Shown here: piece by piece, positions 52,965-61,121 of the stretch
How positions within the stretch are numbered: position 1 is the first letter of the stretch
Layout: each line of letters starts with the position of its first letter
NCBI GenBank assembly: GCA_029974015.1
Contig: JARKUF010000004.1
Location: 124,001-188,000 of the forward strand
DNA length: 64,000 nt
Origin: Spirochaetota bacterium
GTDB lineage: Bacteria; Spirochaetota; UBA4802; JAGODF01
Reading direction: 5' to 3'
Notes under the pieces: generated by a model
What the model saw: the letters and a program-made list of their open reading frames with translations, nothing else
Database searches by the model: none
What the model was told of the DNA's origin: nothing
Translations under genes and position numbers: made by a program

Positions 52965-54539
52965 TTAGAATGTTCCGCTGGCGAAAAGTTCCGCCACGGT
53001 GTTTTCACACTCGGCCTGTGTGAGATGGCGTGCAGCCCTCGCTGAGAAGTATACTCCTCCCATGGCTAAAGTCATTTTTCCTGCGAGAATAAACCCGCTT
53101 TCCCTGATGAAACTGCCCGGTATGCGGGAGTTTCTCAGAGGCAGCAGGCTTTCGTATGCCGGATTTCCTTCCGCGATGAAGGCGCGGGTGATGGAAAGGG
53201 AAAGGGAGGAGGTCCGTCGATAATGGGCTGATACAGCGGCGGTGCCGGTCCGCGAGGCGGCCGAGCCTGAACGCTTCAGATATGTCCCCGTAAATGAAAG
53301 CGAAAGGAATTTCCAGGGGCGGACCGCGAGGCGCTGTCGCCACCGGCGGCGCGCGCCGGGGTCGTTGCCGCTGCGGCTGGAGACCGCAGCTTCGAACCTG
53401 CATAGCTCCAGCCATCGATGGCTGATATCGACAAAGGCGCATTCCCGCTTTGCCATGGGACGCTCATGGTCGCGGGGCCCTGTTGCGGTTTTTCTCTCCG
53501 AGGAAGCCGAGACGCCAATTTTCAAGAAACTCCGGGGTGTGAGGGTCCCGTCAAGAAAGAGCCCCGTGCCGGTGTATTCCCCCACCGAAGCTCCATAGGG
53601 GCTGTAGTAATGCTGGTCGGCGTCTTTCCAGATAAGGGAAAGCCTTACACAGGAGGACATGAGGCCCATTCCTCCCAGATATGCGGAACCGCCGTTGGAG
53701 GCGCTGCTTCCATCATCGTTGTAAAAACGCGTCTGAGCCGTTACCCTCTCGAAGAAAAGGGCTATAAAATCGTCCCTATACTCGGCGGTGAAGCCTCCAC
53801 CTGCGAACCGCTCCGCGCCGCCTGCGACGCTGAAAGAATCTCCCCGGGGCGTGAAAACGCCGTTGCCGAGCCCGTATGCCTGGACCGTCAGAAGCCCGAA
53901 TAAGTTGGCGGCGAGAAGCGCCCCGGGAGTATGGATATGGACCGGTTCGATGTACAAACGGTCCCTACGGTCGCGGTTTTCCATGGACGTGCCCGATGCT
54001 GCCGTGCCCCGGGATTCATACTCCTCCTGTGTGGCATGACGTTCCCGGAGGGAGTAGAACGCCCGCAGAGAGAAGGAGATATCATCTCCCTCGATTCCGA
54101 ATTCGAAGGCGACGCCGTTGAAGGCAAAGTATGGGTTTCCGCTATTACAGGGTATGAATGTATCGCCCTCATGTATCGACCCGCGCCGGGAAAAGAGGTC
54201 AGGCTGCCACGCGCTCCTTTTCCCCAAGAGGAGCCCCTTGCCGAAATGCGCGTGGAAATTGCCCGCGGCGAAGGAAAAATTTGGGCCCAGGTCCCTTAGA
54301 AAAATATTCCATGTTCCGCGGGAGATGCCGGTTTTCGTATCGCGCGTGTGGGCCGCGCTGGCGGCGCTCTTTTCGCTGAATTTCAGGAAGATGCGTTCCC
54401 GGTGGAACTCCCGGGTTTTCTCCTCGAAATCGACGGCGTCCCGGCGGTACTCGCCCTGGAGCCTTGCCGAATAATCCCCTCCGGCGGCAAAGGCGACGCG
54501 GACGGCTAAAAGAAAAACCGCCGTCATCGGGAAGCGCAT
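52965..54539 (-). CDS. Predicted outer-membrane beta-barrel protein (third gene of the cassette)
   Basis: A 524-aa secreted protein with signal peptide RFPMTAVFLLAVRVAFAAGG. The body alternates short beta strands rich in aromatic, Gly and Ser residues, as in outer-membrane barrels. NFHAHFGKGLLLGKRSAWQP resembles the FGQGLLL segment of the barrel region of some Bacteroidota helix-hairpin-helix proteins, as I remember them. The last residues end in Phe (SGTF), as barrel proteins often do. It overlaps the HhH protein gene by 16 bp. Function unknown. Confidence 0.7.
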   Translation of the reverse strand: MRFPMTAVFLLAVRVAFAAGGDYSARLQGEYRRDAVDFEEKTREFHRERIFLKFSEKSAASAAHTRDTKTGISRGTWNIFLRDLGPNFSFAAGNFHAHFGKGLLLGKRSAWQPDLFSRRGSIHEGDTFIPCNSGNPYFAFNGVAFEFGIEGDDISFSLRAFYSLRERHATQEEYESRGTAASGTSMENRDRRDRLYIEPVHIHTPGALLAANLFGLLTVQAYGLGNGVFTPRGDSFSVAGGAERFAGGGFTAEYRDDFIALFFERVTAQTRFYNDDGSSASNGGSAYLGGMGLMSSCVRLSLIWKDADQHYYSPYGASVGEYTGTGLFLDGTLTPRSFLKIGVSASSERKTATGPRDHERPMAKRECAFVDISHRWLELCRFEAAVSSRSGNDPGARRRWRQRLAVRPWKFLSLSFTGTYLKRSGSAASRTGTAAVSAHYRRTSSLSLSITRAFIAEGNPAYESLLPLRNSRIPGSFIRESGFILAGKMTLAMGGVYFSARAARHLTQAECENTVAELFASGTF

Positions 54540-55846
54540 ATCTTCCTCGCCGCCTTTTTTTCCGATTCATTGAGATACGCCAGGCCGCCGATTTTTTCTG
54601 AGAGTTTTTCCCTCGTCATCTCTTTCGCGAGTTCCGCGACACGGAGGGCGGAGCCGGCCTTCACGCCTCCATTTACCAGCTCCTGAAAGAGGGCTTTCCG
54701 AGCCCTGCGCGTGTAAAATGGGAGAAAAGCTTTTCGCTTCGCGTCGGCCCCGCGCACGGGCCGGTGTTTTTTTCGGGATTGTTCCCTTTCGGGGTCCGGC
54801 GCTATGTTCTCCAGACAGGGCTTCAGGCGGCTGAATTCAGCGGGCAAAACCCCCATCTGGATGAGGGCCAGGCGGCTCAGGGGTCCGAAGGATTGTCTGT
54901 ATTTCACCAGGCGTTCCGCGACATGGCCGTCTATGCCGACGTTTCGCAACTCGTCAATGGTGCAGGTTTCGAGGTCGAGTTTAACATCGCAGGCAGCGCG
55001 CCTCCTGGGAGCGGCGTATCGGATTTCCTCAAGCGGCGGCGTTACGCTTAAAACGGTTACGCTCAGGGAGTGGGTCGGGCCCAGATAGCCGTGGTATCGA
55101 AGCCCGTAAGACACCATCGTTCCCTTGAAGAGCAAAATGACGGCGCCGGCCAATGAATGGGTTTCCCGCGACCAGCCCCCCGTGACCGCGAGGAAGGGCA
55201 TAATGTTTGCCGACACGGTAACTGTGTTCACAGGCCCAAAGTATGTGCCGTTGATATTCCACGCAGCAGCGAAACCCCTCACGGGCCGGAGGGCGATACC
55301 GGCGCACCATTCCGGAAAGTGAAGGTCCCGCCCGTCCCTGGAAATGAGAGAGCGCAGGTTCTCCTGCTGATACGCGATGTCAATCCAGGGGAAGGGCGTT
55401 AACGCAACCGCGGCCCGGACGTCCCAGAGCTCCAAGGTGATATCGGCGGCGTCCGTGTCGATTCTGAGCCTGTCGTATGATATTCCTCCTCCTATTTTGA
55501 GCGGGCCCCAGGGCATAAACCCCGCGGCGGCTTCTACCGTATCTTCCCGGTATTCTTCAATCCCGAAGCTCCTCCATGAGACAAGGGCGCCGGCGCGGGG
55601 CGCCGCGGCGCCCGCCGATACATATCCGGCATGGAGCCCTTCCAGCCCGTAGGGGCGGGAGTACGACATGTCGAGGAAAAGAGGAGCGCTGCCGGGAAGG
55701 AAAGCGGGGGAGAGATGCGGCCCCGCCGCGGAATGCTCAACAGCGGCGCGCTGGTAGGGGAAGAGCGCGGCCGGATGTGAGTGCCGATACGTGAAGGCCG
55801 TGGAACTCAGGGACAGGGAGACGAAGAGTATCAAGGATACAGTCAT
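54524..55846 (-). CDS. Outer-membrane-like protein with ComEA-type helix-hairpin-helix (second gene of the cassette)
   Basis: A 440-aa secreted protein. After the signal peptide (TVSLILFVSLSLSSTAF), residues ~30-270 are beta-rich and glycine/aromatic-rich, like a barrel or beta-sheet membrane domain (GGGISYDRLRIDTDAADITL). Residues ~285-345 (TCTIDELRNVGIDGHVAERL then VKYRQSFGPLSRLALIQMGV) form a helix-hairpin-helix like that of DNA-binding ComEA. The C-terminal ~95 residues are basic and helical. It overlaps its neighbours by 4 and 16 bp. Linking a DNA-binding motif to an envelope protein suggests nucleic-acid handling (hypothesis). Confidence 0.7.
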   Translation of the reverse strand: MTVSLILFVSLSLSSTAFTYRHSHPAALFPYQRAAVEHSAAGPHLSPAFLPGSAPLFLDMSYSRPYGLEGLHAGYVSAGAAAPRAGALVSWRSFGIEEYREDTVEAAAGFMPWGPLKIGGGISYDRLRIDTDAADITLELWDVRAAVALTPFPWIDIAYQQENLRSLISRDGRDLHFPEWCAGIALRPVRGFAAAWNINGTYFGPVNTVTVSANIMPFLAVTGGWSRETHSLAGAVILLFKGTMVSYGLRYHGYLGPTHSLSVTVLSVTPPLEEIRYAAPRRRAACDVKLDLETCTIDELRNVGIDGHVAERLVKYRQSFGPLSRLALIQMGVLPAEFSRLKPCLENIAPDPEREQSRKKHRPVRGADAKRKAFLPFYTRRARKALFQELVNGGVKAGSALRVAELAKEMTREKLSEKIGGLAYLNESEKKAARKICASR

Positions 55847-56865
55847 CTGTAACGGCTCACGATGAGATACACTGTTTCCCGCTGGGAGCGGCGCAGTGAG
55901 GGGCTCGCCGCTTCAATCATGGCGAGATACAGTCCCGTTCCCGCGGTCCTGCCCCTCCCCCGGAGGTCCCAGGAAAGGGAACGGTTTCCCGGGGGGATAT
56001 TGCGCTGCAGCGGCGATTCGTGGACCATCATTCCCCCGGGTGTGAAGACGCGGAGCCGCAGGGATACGGGATGGAAAACCGTGAGAGGGATTGTACATTC
56101 GCCGTGAAAAGGGTGGCCGGGGACCACTGTAATCTTTTTGCGGGGAATGTTGATGAGGTCGCCACCCCGCCCCACAGCAGAGATGATGTTAGGGCGGCCG
56201 GGGGTTTGAAACGCCGTAACGGCAAAATCTTCTTTCGTGTTTCTGTCCTCCGTTCCGATGCGGGCAATGCTCTGATGGGACGCCAGTCCGCGGAGGCCTA
56301 TATCGACCATGGAAAATTGGGGGTTTTCTCCCGAGAAAGGTTCCCACTGTCCTGCGGCCCGCGCATATTCGAGGTACTGGAGCATCGTGCTGTTGGGCGA
56401 CTCATCGCGGTTTGAGAATGCGACGAAATCGATGATTCCGCCGTTTTTTGGATCGTCGTCGGTGTCGATGGCGACGACGCAATCGGTGTTCCAGAGGCTG
56501 CTCGGATAGTTGTTGCAGTAGATGTCGAGGACACCGTTGCGATTGGTATCGCCGGTGAGGTCGGTCTCATCCGGGATACCCGGCGCCGTGAGATGCACTA
56601 CGGCGAAGCGGTCATCATAAGGGGTTTCCGGGAGGTCGCAGCCGTGGAGGGTTATGGGGTCTTCGGACAGGGGCTCGTTGGTGCCATAGTACATGGTTAC
56701 ATAGAGGCGGGATATGTCGATCCGTTCGCCGCACTCGCCCAGAAAGAAAAGCTCAACCCAGTCATCGCCTGAAGTCCCCGGCGCGACCTCGTTTATAAGC
56801 AGGGTCCCCGCAGAGAGGTTTACCGCAACAATGATAATGATGAATGCTGTTCCTATCTTCCTCAT
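55843..56865 (-). CDS. Secreted lamin-tail-like protein with FlgD-type C-terminal domain (first gene of the cassette)
   Basis: A 340-aa secreted protein. The signal peptide spans residues 1-19. LLINEVAPGTSGDDWVELFF at the start of the mature part, then GIIDFVAFSNRDESPNSTML, and repeated Asp-rich turns match the lamin-tail (LTD) domain of secreted bacterial proteins. The C-terminal ~95 residues (SLRLRVFTPGGMMVHESPLQ, GNRSLSWDLRGRGRTAGTGL) match the FlgD-like Ig fold used as a sorting or structural domain. GAGGAAAAACA precedes the ATG. It leads the cassette. Confidence 0.72.
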   Translation of the reverse strand: MRKIGTAFIIIIVAVNLSAGTLLINEVAPGTSGDDWVELFFLGECGERIDISRLYVTMYYGTNEPLSEDPITLHGCDLPETPYDDRFAVVHLTAPGIPDETDLTGDTNRNGVLDIYCNNYPSSLWNTDCVVAIDTDDDPKNGGIIDFVAFSNRDESPNSTMLQYLEYARAAGQWEPFSGENPQFSMVDIGLRGLASHQSIARIGTEDRNTKEDFAVTAFQTPGRPNIISAVGRGGDLINIPRKKITVVPGHPFHGECTIPLTVFHPVSLRLRVFTPGGMMVHESPLQRNIPPGNRSLSWDLRGRGRTAGTGLYLAMIEAASPSLRRSQRETVYLIVSRYR

Positions 56866-57171: not shown

Positions 57172-57579
57172 ATGGATTTTATTACATGGACGGATGAATT
57201 TAGCGTTGGAGTGGGAAAGTTTGACGCTGAACACCGGAATCTGGTAAATTTTATCAATAAGCTCAACAATGCCCTGAAGATTGGAAGCGCACAGAAGACC
57301 ATCGAAGAGATACTGGGGGGGCTTATCAGGTATACCGCCATTCATTTCAAGCATGAGGAAGATTATATGGTATTGTACGATTACCCCGCTTATGAGGCAC
57401 ACCGGAAGGAACACCAGGACCTCACCGCCCAGGTCGCCGATTTCTACGAGCGCTTTTGCGCCGGGAAGACGACCTTCTCTCTTGAGCTCTTGAATTTTTT
57501 GAAGGACTGGCTGACGAAACATATCCTTGGAAGCGACAGGGCTTACAGGGATTTCTTTAATGGAAAGGGCGTAAATTGA
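57172..57579 (+). CDS. Bacteriohemerythrin
   Basis: A 135-aa four-helix bundle with a di-iron site. The ligand pattern is complete: HRNLVNFINKL with its preceding FDAEH, HFKHEEDYM (two His, Glu), HRKEHQDL (two His), and the C-terminal HILGSDRAY (His, Asp). Hemerythrins bind O2 reversibly and deliver or sense it. With no signal peptide it is cytoplasmic. The stop codon overlaps the TTG start of the next gene (TTGA), so translation is coupled. Confidence 0.93.
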   Translation: MDFITWTDEFSVGVGKFDAEHRNLVNFINKLNNALKIGSAQKTIEEILGGLIRYTAIHFKHEEDYMVLYDYPAYEAHRKEHQDLTAQVADFYERFCAGKTTFSLELLNFLKDWLTKHILGSDRAYRDFFNGKGVN

Positions 57580-60500
57580 AATTCAAGTTTCTGTGCACGC
57601 TTCTTTTCTGCGCCTTGCACATCTCCGGTTTTCCCGGTGAAGATTTCACCGCCCGGGAGCATAAGGTCATGGAAAGCTTCCGCAAAGGAGATTACTTCGG
57701 CCTTTACGAAAATATCGAAGCCCTGCTTTTTGACCACCCCTTCCGTCCCGAGGCGTTTCTTTATTATTACGATATCGCCCGCATGGCCGATGTCCTGGGC
57801 CGCCAAAGGGCCGAAGCGACCCTGGATGCCCTTTTATCAAGGCTTGACGAAACGCCCGAAGTGGCAAACGCTAATATCATCCGCCTCAATCTTACCCTTG
57901 AGAAAGAAAAAGTAATTTCACCCCGCGATACAAAGGGCGCCGCTAAGCTGGGTGAGATGCTTGGGCCCCTGAGAAAGTGGGTTGTTTTCGGGCCCTATAA
58001 AAAATACGGCCCCGGGGACCTGTATCATCCATTTCCGCCGGAAGGGGCCCTGTCGCTGAAAACACGGGTGAGCGCCGGCAGGACCATTGATATCGACAAT
58101 CCCGGCGGAATTTTAAAATTCGGAAGATATATCTACCCCGCCGAGGGCATTGCTTACGCGGCGACATCGTTTCGGATTTCCGGAGAGGTGAAAGTCCGCG
58201 TCTACTCCGGGGCCGAGTATGCGCTCTTCATAAACGGCAGGCATGTCCTCACCAATGGCGGGGGCGATACGTCTCGCCTCTGCCGTGTTATACGAATACA
58301 GGGCACCGACGAAGTTACCCTCATGCTAAAAATCCGTAAGCTGCGTTCCTGGGACGCCAGGGTCATAGTCACCGACGTGGAGGACAGGGTCCTCAGGCCG
58401 GTCCTGGAACTTGACCGATTTTATCGTTCCGGGTTTCGCCATGTGGAGGAACCGGACCACCCCTTTGCCGCGTTCATGGCGTTGGAGGACCAGGGCCGGA
58501 AGGCTTTTGCCCTTGCTTCGTTTTTTGACGAGCTTGAGAGCGATGAATCCATAGAGCTGTATAGGAAAGCCGCAGAAAGCAGGAAGGACGCCATGAGCGC
58601 GTACTTCCTGGCCTCGGCCCTTCTCGGATACAGCGGCAATGACGCTGCATCGGCGCGGTTTTTAGAAGGATGGAGGATGATGGGGGAGGCCGCCAGAGAT
58701 CCGGGCCTGGTGCCCGCCCTGCACCGGCGTTTTAGAAAAATATACGATTCCCGCGATTACCTGAAGGCCCTGGAGTACGGCAAGAGCAAGTATGGTAAGA
58801 TGAGGAATTATTTCCCATTCCGGCGGGATTACCTCCGCCTCATGCGCCTCATGGGTTACAGAAAGGAGTTCGAGGAGGAGAGCGAGAAGCTCAGGGCCGA
58901 TTTTCCGTCGTCGATTTTTTCTTTCCAGGAAGAGGCGGAATATTGGGAGAAGCACGAACCCTTGAAAGCGGCGTCGATCTACGAAGAGCTCCTCAAAAAA
59001 ACATACGACAGAAAAAGCCTGAAGGCACTGGTGAATCTGTACCGTCGACGCTCCATGAACCGGGAGGCCCTGGGGGCCATTGAAAAATACGGTCTTCCCG
59101 GGGACCTCTCCAGGGACAGGGTTTCCCTTCTGGTGGACCTGGGGGAATACGAGGCTGCAAAGGACCTCGCCTTCAAGAAGCTCCTGGAACGAGAGGACCC
59201 CTATTATTATCTACAGCTTGGATACATTGACCAGCTTCGGGGAGACGATCCGCTGATGCACTGGAAGCGATATTTGTCGCTGAAACCTTCGTATTTCACC
59301 TTGAATGAATACGGCACCTTCCTCGAAAAGGGGGCCCCCGCCGTACCTCTGGGCGATATCAACGGCGCCGGGGCCCTCGCGGCGGTGGAGCGCTGGAAAA
59401 AGAGCGAATCCGCGGCAGGCGCATCGTCCAGCGTGCTGTACCGGGGCCGTGTGTACGAACTTCTTCGGGACGGAGGGAGCAGGGTACACTGCGAGGAGGT
59501 GATCGCACTGGAGGACCGGAAGGGAATCGAGAAATGGGGGGAGTACAGGGTCCCCTATCGCGGAAGTTTCACGCCGGTTAGGGTGAGGGTGCACCGCTCC
59601 GATGGAGGCTACACGGAATCGTACGGCGTCCAGGACGTGGATGGCACTAAATATATCAACCTCCCTTCACTCGAGGAACATTCCCTGGTCCACCTGGAAT
59701 ACTATGTGGAAAACCCCGTAGGCGGTCCCGCCTATTCTTCGTTCTTCTGCACTCCGAGAACGGAAATAGCGAATTATGACGAACCACTTGAAAAATTCCA
59801 CTTCACCCTCCTGGCCCCGCCGGAGATGCGTGTGAACGTCAGGGCGCCTGAAGGCGCGAAAGTCCGGGAAGGCCAACGTGACGGCATGAAATCGTATTCG
59901 TTTTCCGTGGAAAACGTCCCCGCAATCACGCGGGAGAGCTACGTTGGAAGCAAGTTTCGGGTCCTTCCCTGGTACGCTTTCTCGACCATGGAAAGCATCG
60001 GCGATTTTGCGACATGGTACCGCGGCCGCCTTGGGGGGCTCCTTGACGCGGACTCCGATTTCTGCCGTCGGCAGTTTTCGGGCCGGGGAGAAGCCCTCGT
60101 GCATGAGGTGTACGAATACGTGGCGCGCAAGGTGGACCTCGACGGGACCTACCTCTATTATCCGAAGAAGGCTTCGGACGTACTTTACCGCAAAAGCGGC
60201 ACTGCCGAAGACAGAGTGGTCCTTGCAAAATCAATACTGGCGCGCCTGGGTATGATTTCCTTCATCGCCTTTGCCCGGAGGATGGAACAGCCGGACATCG
60301 GGGGCACAGTTTTACCTGAAAGCTTTACCGATATTCTTTTATTCGTACCCATCACGACGGAGCGTGGGCTCTGGCTTGATTTTTCCAGCATGGAGTACGC
60401 CTGCGGCGATGTGTCTCCCGGCCTGGACGATACCGAGGCCCTGGTTTTACATACGGGGGGCCATGAATACAGGAGGATAAAGGGCGGTAAGGACGCCGAA

Positions 60501-61121
60501 GTGACCGGCAGATACCATGTTACCCTGACACGCGAGGGAAATGCTGAGATAGAGGGGTCCCTGGAATTTTCCGGCACACTGGGAGAGTTTCGAAAAAACT
60601 TTAAAAACGCTTGGGAGCAAGAGAAGGGCGCCCGGATATATTTCTCTTCCCTCATTCCTTCCCTGGAGTTGGAAAAGTTCACTGTGGAGCGTCTTGAAGA
60701 GCATCGAAAACCTTTCAAAATCACCATGACTGGAGGGGCCTTCGGCTTGGGGACCCCGGGGAGGAAACGCCTCCTGTTCAGGACATCCTTGGTGGCCAGC
60801 AATGCTTACAAGTATATCCGGTACTCATCGCGCCATCACGCGCTTGTGGTCAGGGAAGACCTTATGGAGGACGATATTTACGAGTATCGACTCCCCGAGG
60901 GGACCGCCTCCGTTTCAGCGCCGGAGGATTTTTCTCTGGGGGGACGCTTCGGCTACGCGGAAATAAAAATCAGATGCGCCGGAACATCCGGCCCAATCAC
61001 TGTGATGAAAAAAATTCACCTGAAAAAGGGCGTGATTTCGCCCCATGACTATGGTGAATTCATGGATTTCTGCATGAAGATAAAGGACGCGGAATATAAA
61101 AATATTACTGCGGGGTTATGA
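57576..61121 (+). CDS. Secreted TPR / DUF3857 / transglutaminase-like protein lacking the catalytic residues
   Basis: An 1181-aa protein with a signal peptide (residues 1-18). Residues ~20-200 and ~300-560 contain TPR-like helical repeats; residues ~620-715 match DUF3857; residues ~865-960 are the transglutaminase-like core. In that family the active Cys sits in a GxCxDxA-type motif and the His in an F-x-H-V strand. Here the places read GTAEDR and SFTDILLF, so both Cys and His appear lost. It is probably a scaffold or binding protein. The start is TTG at 57576 with GGAAAGGGCG upstream, overlapping the hemerythrin stop. Confidence 0.78.
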   Translation: MKFKFLCTLLFCALHISGFPGEDFTAREHKVMESFRKGDYFGLYENIEALLFDHPFRPEAFLYYYDIARMADVLGRQRAEATLDALLSRLDETPEVANANIIRLNLTLEKEKVISPRDTKGAAKLGEMLGPLRKWVVFGPYKKYGPGDLYHPFPPEGALSLKTRVSAGRTIDIDNPGGILKFGRYIYPAEGIAYAATSFRISGEVKVRVYSGAEYALFINGRHVLTNGGGDTSRLCRVIRIQGTDEVTLMLKIRKLRSWDARVIVTDVEDRVLRPVLELDRFYRSGFRHVEEPDHPFAAFMALEDQGRKAFALASFFDELESDESIELYRKAAESRKDAMSAYFLASALLGYSGNDAASARFLEGWRMMGEAARDPGLVPALHRRFRKIYDSRDYLKALEYGKSKYGKMRNYFPFRRDYLRLMRLMGYRKEFEEESEKLRADFPSSIFSFQEEAEYWEKHEPLKAASIYEELLKKTYDRKSLKALVNLYRRRSMNREALGAIEKYGLPGDLSRDRVSLLVDLGEYEAAKDLAFKKLLEREDPYYYLQLGYIDQLRGDDPLMHWKRYLSLKPSYFTLNEYGTFLEKGAPAVPLGDINGAGALAAVERWKKSESAAGASSSVLYRGRVYELLRDGGSRVHCEEVIALEDRKGIEKWGEYRVPYRGSFTPVRVRVHRSDGGYTESYGVQDVDGTKYINLPSLEEHSLVHLEYYVENPVGGPAYSSFFCTPRTEIANYDEPLEKFHFTLLAPPEMRVNVRAPEGAKVREGQRDGMKSYSFSVENVPAITRESYVGSKFRVLPWYAFSTMESIGDFATWYRGRLGGLLDADSDFCRRQFSGRGEALVHEVYEYVARKVDLDGTYLYYPKKASDVLYRKSGTAEDRVVLAKSILARLGMISFIAFARRMEQPDIGGTVLPESFTDILLFVPITTERGLWLDFSSMEYACGDVSPGLDDTEALVLHTGGHEYRRIKGGKDAEVTGRYHVTLTREGNAEIEGSLEFSGTLGEFRKNFKNAWEQEKGARIYFSSLIPSLELEKFTVERLEEHRKPFKITMTGGAFGLGTPGRKRLLFRTSLVASNAYKYIRYSSRHHALVVREDLMEDDIYEYRLPEGTASVSAPEDFSLGGRFGYAEIKIRCAGTSGPITVMKKIHLKKGVISPHDYGEFMDFCMKIKDAEYKNITAGL

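Follow-up and report, generated by a model that had tools for sequence, protein, structure and literature searches.

The 64,000-nucleotide stretch analysed here (positions 124,001 to 188,000 of contig JARKUF010000004.1, assembly GCA_029974015.1; hereafter the window) comes from the 3.26 Mb genome of a Spirochaetota bacterium, the named relatives of which are uncultured Spirochaetota. Between positions 52965 and 56865 its minus strand carries three genes that overlap one another and form a genuine conserved operon, and each of the proteins, read directly from the sequence, opens with a hydrophobic segment resembling a signal peptide. The original prediction, made from the letters of the window alone, had proposed a cassette of three secreted proteins whose genes overlap by 4 and 16 bases, and the coordinates of the open reading frames bear it out:

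55843..56865, minus strand: gene 1, secreted lamin-tail-domain protein of 340 amino acids, found across the order discussed below (open reading frame; alignment of relatives)
55843..55846, minus strand: overlap of genes 1 and 2, 4 bases (open reading frame coordinates; neighbourhoods of relatives)
54524..55846, minus strand: gene 2, predicted PorV-like barrel followed by a helix-hairpin-helix (HhH) and a basic helical tail, 440 amino acids (open reading frame; model; PDB match)
54524..54539, minus strand: overlap of genes 2 and 3, 16 bases (open reading frame coordinates; neighbourhoods of relatives)
52965..54539, minus strand: gene 3, predicted large outer-membrane beta-barrel of about 24 strands, 524 amino acids (model)

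Relatives were sought in 46 genomes of one Spirochaetota order and in 250 other Spirochaetota, 296 in all. Protein 2 was matched in 41 of the 46 and in none of the 250 sampled outside the order. The complete trio, in one order and on one strand, was present in 38 of the 40 neighbourhoods fetched, the remaining two being truncated by contig ends, and the median intergenic spacing was -4 bases between genes 1 and 2 and -16 bases between genes 2 and 3. It is because order, strand and overlaps recur in this way that the trio must be seen as more than an effect of chance. Conservation is highest in protein 1 (mean column identity 57%), followed by protein 2 (41%) and protein 3 (35%), and the genes that flank the trio differ between lineages. 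In the window a hemerythrin-like protein, then a 1181-residue DUF3857/DUF3858 protein, are encoded at 57172-61121 in divergent orientation from the cassette.

Domains and folds of the three proteins

Taken alone, the window proteins yield a single meaningful Pfam hit, HHH_3 in protein 2, at an E-value of 2.6e-4 that lies below the Pfam cut-off, so that relatives were required to test the domain assignments. With their help the following features could be placed:

56326..56808, minus strand: lamin-tail domain, residues 20-180 of protein 1 (hhalign against lamin-tail regions of relatives)
56506..56571, minus strand: acidic stretch DETDxTGDTNGNGxxDVYCNNY in protein 1, putative calcium site (invariant or nearly invariant alignment columns)
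55846..56145, minus strand: C-terminal domain of FlgD-Ig or type-9-sorting-like character, residues 241-340 of protein 1 (profile matches)
55049..55681, minus strand: predicted 14-strand beta-barrel, residues 56-266 of protein 2 (DSSP of the model)
55544..55567, minus strand: signature FGIxxYRE in the barrel of protein 2, common across phyla (conserved columns in alignments of the window family and of remote relatives)
54815..54985, minus strand: HhH of HHH_3/ComEA type, residues 288-344 of protein 2 (Pfam, profile, helices of the model)
54530..54736, minus strand: predicted C-terminal helical domain, residues 371-439 of protein 2 (model)
54219..54263, minus strand: signature GNFHAHFGKGLLLGK, residues 93-107 of protein 3, common to HhH-barrel proteins of other families (protein 3 alignment; hhalign)

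The lamin-tail domain (LTD) that had been anticipated in protein 1 is, by profile comparison, genuine: undetected by the Pfam scan of the window protein alone, it comes out when the family profile is aligned with the LTD regions of relatives (hhalign probability 99.5, E 3e-22), in which Pfam itself recognises LTD at 3.6e-16 and 1.3e-9. The acidic stretch is probably a calcium site. The FlgD-type end, likewise anticipated, is seen in the relatives: within the window family the similarity to type 9 sorting domains is weak (CHU_C in three members, FlgD_ig in two, all weak), and the profile of this C-terminal domain matches the C-terminus of remote relatives, where FlgD_ig reaches 3.8e-9, TIGR04183 passes its cut-off and CHU_C/Por_Secre_tail domains are found. 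The lamin-tail protein had no match in plasmids.

For protein 2 the original prediction combined a beta-rich envelope domain with a ComEA-like HhH; the second part stood, and the first had to be revised, since the envelope domain appears to be itself a 14-strand outer-membrane barrel of the PorV/FadL type. The structure model (predicted local distance difference test score, pLDDT, 86.5) has as its top PDB match in Foldseek the chain 6h3i_F (E 1e-8), followed by OmpG and FadL; 6h3i is an entry on the type 9 translocon, the chain F of which we take to be PorV, and the template-modelling (TM) scores against it are modest (0.44/0.55). The NCBIfam model PorV_fam (NF033709) gives no hit in the window protein and remains below its cut-off in gene-2 homologues (1.1e-5 at locus L169 and 7.6e-9 in Parabacteroides distasonis, both described below), and hhalign relates the barrel to a Parabacteroides PorV_fam-related protein (E 5e-12). 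The HhH is helical in the model, where it spans residues 297-344, HHH_3 is recognised in 34 of 35 homologues of protein 2, and its profile matches the ComEA chains 8dss (3.7e-6) and 8dfk (1.7e-4), so that a ComEA-type ancestry is supported at the level of sequence. From residue 353 onward the tail has a net charge of +14; weak hits of this tail to DnaB-type helicases were at chance level and were dismissed.

That protein 3 is a barrel agrees with its model (pLDDT 88.9, predicted TM-score 0.84), which contains 24 long strands; the models of proteins 2 and 3 had been set beforehand as a test, and both barrels as well as the HhH are present in them. The fold of protein 3 matches siderophore receptors and the FimD/PapC ushers in the PDB and has no clear single relative (TM-scores 0.35-0.51 in the query frame). 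With no plug domain in its model and no Pfam hit, it does not show the 22 strands plus plug of a TonB-dependent transporter. Its family is related by hhalign to HhH-barrel proteins of other families (E 1e-15). Cousins of gene 3 that consist of the barrel only, without HhH, and that carry a motif of the GNYxxxFGQGxLxGG type were seen at L171:7259-9028, L172:9627-11411 and L173:337-2070; near them lie an exonuclease-like gene, which is conserved, and an OmpA-like one.

Remote relatives and the shifting place of the HhH

Outside the order, the gene order is kept in two other Spirochaetota families and in one bacterium whose record names no phylum, and the homology of gene 2 with its remote counterparts is supported (hhalign E 2e-28). 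In the first family (f9, locus L169) two lamin-tail-type genes precede a gene-2 homologue with HhH and a gene-3 homologue that has its own N-terminal HhH; the HhH of the former retains a ComEA-like hairpin and exceeds the cut-off of the ComEA repeat model TIGR00426 (60.1 bits, cut-off 53.1). The same cluster encodes a further lamin-tail protein ending in a type A sorting domain of the type 9 secretion system (T9SS; 34.3 bits, cut-off 23) and a PorV_fam-related protein (1.5e-15). In the second family (f29, locus L170) a lamin-tail plus FlgD-Ig reading frame, with no clean start in the contig, goes with a gene 2 carrying HhH and a gene 3 carrying two. The bacterium without phylum (L106) has a lamin-tail gene, the product of which bears a sorting domain just over the cut-off (23.8 bits, cut-off 23), a barrel without HhH, then an HhH joined to a barrel; no GNxxxxFGxGL motif is present in this third barrel, the homology of which with gene 3 is uncertain.

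Bacteroidales take part in this picture as well. There the gene-3 homologue is an HhH protein known from Parabacteroides, Bacteroides, Phocaeicola and Prevotella (tblastn from L170 gives 2e-16 at best, in Phocaeicola, and 4e-10 in P. distasonis). Parabacteroides retains the pair of genes 2 and 3, its gene-3 homologue being preceded by a gene-2 homologue that has no HhH. In phages, no match was found for the gene-3 homologue of L169. Depending on the relative, the HhH closes gene 2, opens gene 3 or does both, and as its location varies between these two genes it seems to serve the periplasmic space between both barrels, which suggests that this is where it works. The observation is confirmed, and it is larger than the original prediction stated.

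Two other Spirochaetota loci (L175:2-9629 and L176:357-5951) encode a CHU_C/FlgD-ended protein, a PorV/FadL-like barrel and at least two large barrel-like proteins, one of which has an N-terminal carbohydrate-binding-like region; neither HhH nor lamin tail is present in these clusters.

Polymer uptake, surface display or another ligand

Our tentative preference goes to the idea that the trio makes up an outer-membrane complex for capture and uptake, with DNA as its most likely ligand. Protein 1, probably stabilised by calcium, would be exported to the cell surface, where the PorV-like barrel of protein 2 would hold it by its FlgD/T9SS-like C-terminal domain, as the similarity to PorV suggests. 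Beside it, protein 3, a barrel in its model, is the candidate conduit. If the topology of the barrels is any guide, the HhH and the basic tail of protein 2 would hang in the periplasm below them, and may draw the polymer inward in the manner of a ComEA built into the complex; ComEC, encoded elsewhere in the genome, would then hand it onward.

Several features were counted for DNA. Beyond the ComEA-type ancestry, with the homologue of L169 passing the ComEA repeat cut-off, HhH and tail together have an isoelectric point that exceeds 8 in 34 of the 35 members; lamin-tail domains are known in the literature from secreted nucleases (ExeM) and from DNA-degradation loci; the transformation genetics of Riemerella anatipestifer, to which we come back, involve components of the same kinds; and the window genome possesses ComEC, while gene 2 is its sole HHH_3 hit. 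A short separate reading frame with HHH_3 exists in only about three genomes of the order. The co-occurrence with comEC and dprA to which the original prediction pointed holds for ComEC, present in 43 of the 46 genomes; it is uninformative alone, because ComEC is also encoded in some genomes without the cassette.

Against DNA uptake a series of points must be set. Hairpin glycine pairs (GhG) are the usual DNA-contacting feature of HhH domains, and in none of the 35 members is a full pair retained in either hairpin; in the gene-3 homologues of Bacteroidales the HhH has degenerated to the same extent. The median net charge of the lamin-tail region is -21 among family members, protein 1 has no nuclease domain, and ExeM did not need its LTD to degrade extracellular DNA in vivo (PMC6085458). 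No operon link joins the cassette to comEC or dprA: the ComEC gene of the window genome (L198:8294-10288, G000:C23) lies on a contig other than that of the cassette, on which there is no HHH_3 hit, and in this ComEC only the Competence domain was detected, the metallo-beta-lactamase domain being undetected. Finally, the genomes G064 and G146 have no cassette and still encode ComEC. Of the nucleic-acid apparatus that had been proposed, the outer-membrane location, the domain assignments and the ComEA-type ancestry of the HhH are supported, and the original prediction is borne out in part.

The original prediction overlooked both the PorV relationship and an SprA-like protein, which give a protein-export reading similar weight. 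The cassette may be a dedicated type-9-like module for surface display in which DNA is uninvolved: the lamin-tail protein would be the cargo, exported by an SprA-like translocon and anchored through its C-terminal domain by the PorV-like barrel, with protein 3 as a partner barrel and the HhH as a protein-protein adapter joining the two. We hold this to be about as likely as DNA uptake. In its favour, the fold of protein 2 is best matched by PorV in the SprA complex, the C-terminal T9SS sorting domain passes the cut-off in relatives of protein 1 (L169, L106), the L169 cluster includes a PorV_fam-related gene, the pairing of CHU_C-ended protein and PorV/FadL-like barrel at L175 and L176 does without HhH or lamin tail, and the HhH has no glycine pairs of the DNA-contacting kind; yet members of the window family themselves resemble sorting domains only weakly, and the choice of a ComEA-type domain is left unexplained. 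SprA-like proteins of about 1,900 residues occur in 42 of the 46 genomes (82 of all 296) as sub-cut-off, partial but collinear matches; that of the window genome (G000:C34, about 121421-127159; L183:9422-15160) scores 121 bits against TIGR04189, the cut-off of which is 200, and it is on this model that the homology rests, phmmer against the PDB giving no match. Yet GldM was not found in the 46 genomes, in a search whose control was silent too, and of the PorU model NF033707 no part but the C-terminal positions 959-1094 gave matches, many of them in short reading frames of FlgD size. Cassette and SprA-like gene also track each other imperfectly, G064 and G146 having the latter only and G032 and G097 the former only. 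In two genomes (G162, G107) both lie on the same contig within about 15-25 kb, a linkage not clearly beyond chance that we did not retain. A 2016 survey found the T9SS confined to Bacteroidetes (PMC4793230); if confirmed, the SprA-like protein, seen in roughly one in four of the Spirochaetota genomes sampled, would extend a component of this system beyond that group.

Close to the SprA-like gene of the window genome, a lytic-transglycosylase gene with a small secreted partner was noticed (L183:2047-5260); six other genomes (L038, L040, L041, L043, L048, L049) have a pair of similar appearance some 3-5 kb downstream of the cassette.

DNA uptake was placed narrowly before plain display, as it offers a reason for the HhH and leaves room for display as one of its steps. 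In its most specific form, it would make of the cassette a DNA uptake machine of the outer membrane independent of type IV pili, in which a PorV-derived barrel would bear a ComEA domain of its own, a second, large barrel would be the conduit, and the lamin-tail protein would be a receptor brought to the surface along a T9SS-like route, in Spirochaetota and partly in gut Bacteroidota; in so complete a form the proposal is doubtful.

Least likely of all is a different ligand (glycan, metal chelate or lipid) taken up by a lid-and-barrel pair with the logic of SusCD, or an envelope role such as the tethering of the outer membrane to peptidoglycan by the basic tail: FadL-family barrels carry hydrophobic ligands and TonB-dependent receptors are top fold matches of protein 3, but this protein has no plug and its matches single out no family, no carbohydrate-binding domain was detected in any of the three cassette proteins, and the znuACB genes that adjoin the cassette in the window are not conserved as neighbours among relatives, so that the link to zinc was rejected.

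Comparison with known systems

In the literature searched, a limited library, no described system has this three-protein composition, in keeping with the original prediction. With the PorV/SprA pair of the T9SS (6h3i), the cassette would share a 14-strand barrel of the PorV/FadL type, a sorting-domain-like end on the surface protein of its relatives and an SprA-like protein in the genome; it differs in that GldM was not found (the control being silent) and PorU was not detected as such. PorV, unlike protein 2, has no HhH tail, and we know of no T9SS counterpart of gene 3. ExeM-type nucleases are, as protein 1, secreted LTD proteins, whereas protein 1 has no nuclease domain. The Bacteroidales HhH protein (WP_121956131.1 in P. 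distasonis) is a gene-3 homologue with an N-terminal HhH, preceded in that organism by a gene-2 homologue; it has no adjacent lamin-tail gene, and its HhH is on gene 3, not gene 2.

The parallel in R. anatipestifer is one of component kinds. A surface protein, an outer-membrane barrel and an HhH protein (RA0C_RS04920, RS04915 and RS02645) are each required for transformation there, in addition to ComEC and DprA (PMC8459023), and the cassette would bring together the same three kinds. The Riemerella surface protein, however, has DUF5689/DUF5017, its barrel a carboxypeptidase-regulatory-like domain, and its HhH is a separate, predicted periplasmic protein encoded elsewhere. To ComEA itself (TIGR01259/TIGR00426; 8dss, 8dfk) the resemblance lies in an HHH_3-type domain, expected to be periplasmic, and in a homologue over the ComEA repeat cut-off; the window family has lost the hairpin glycine pairs, and its HhH forms one polypeptide with a barrel of the outer membrane. 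For the passage of DNA or other large polymers through the outer membrane by routes other than that of the type-IV-pilus model, the cassette offers a compact and conserved candidate, its HhH being covalently part of an outer-membrane barrel.

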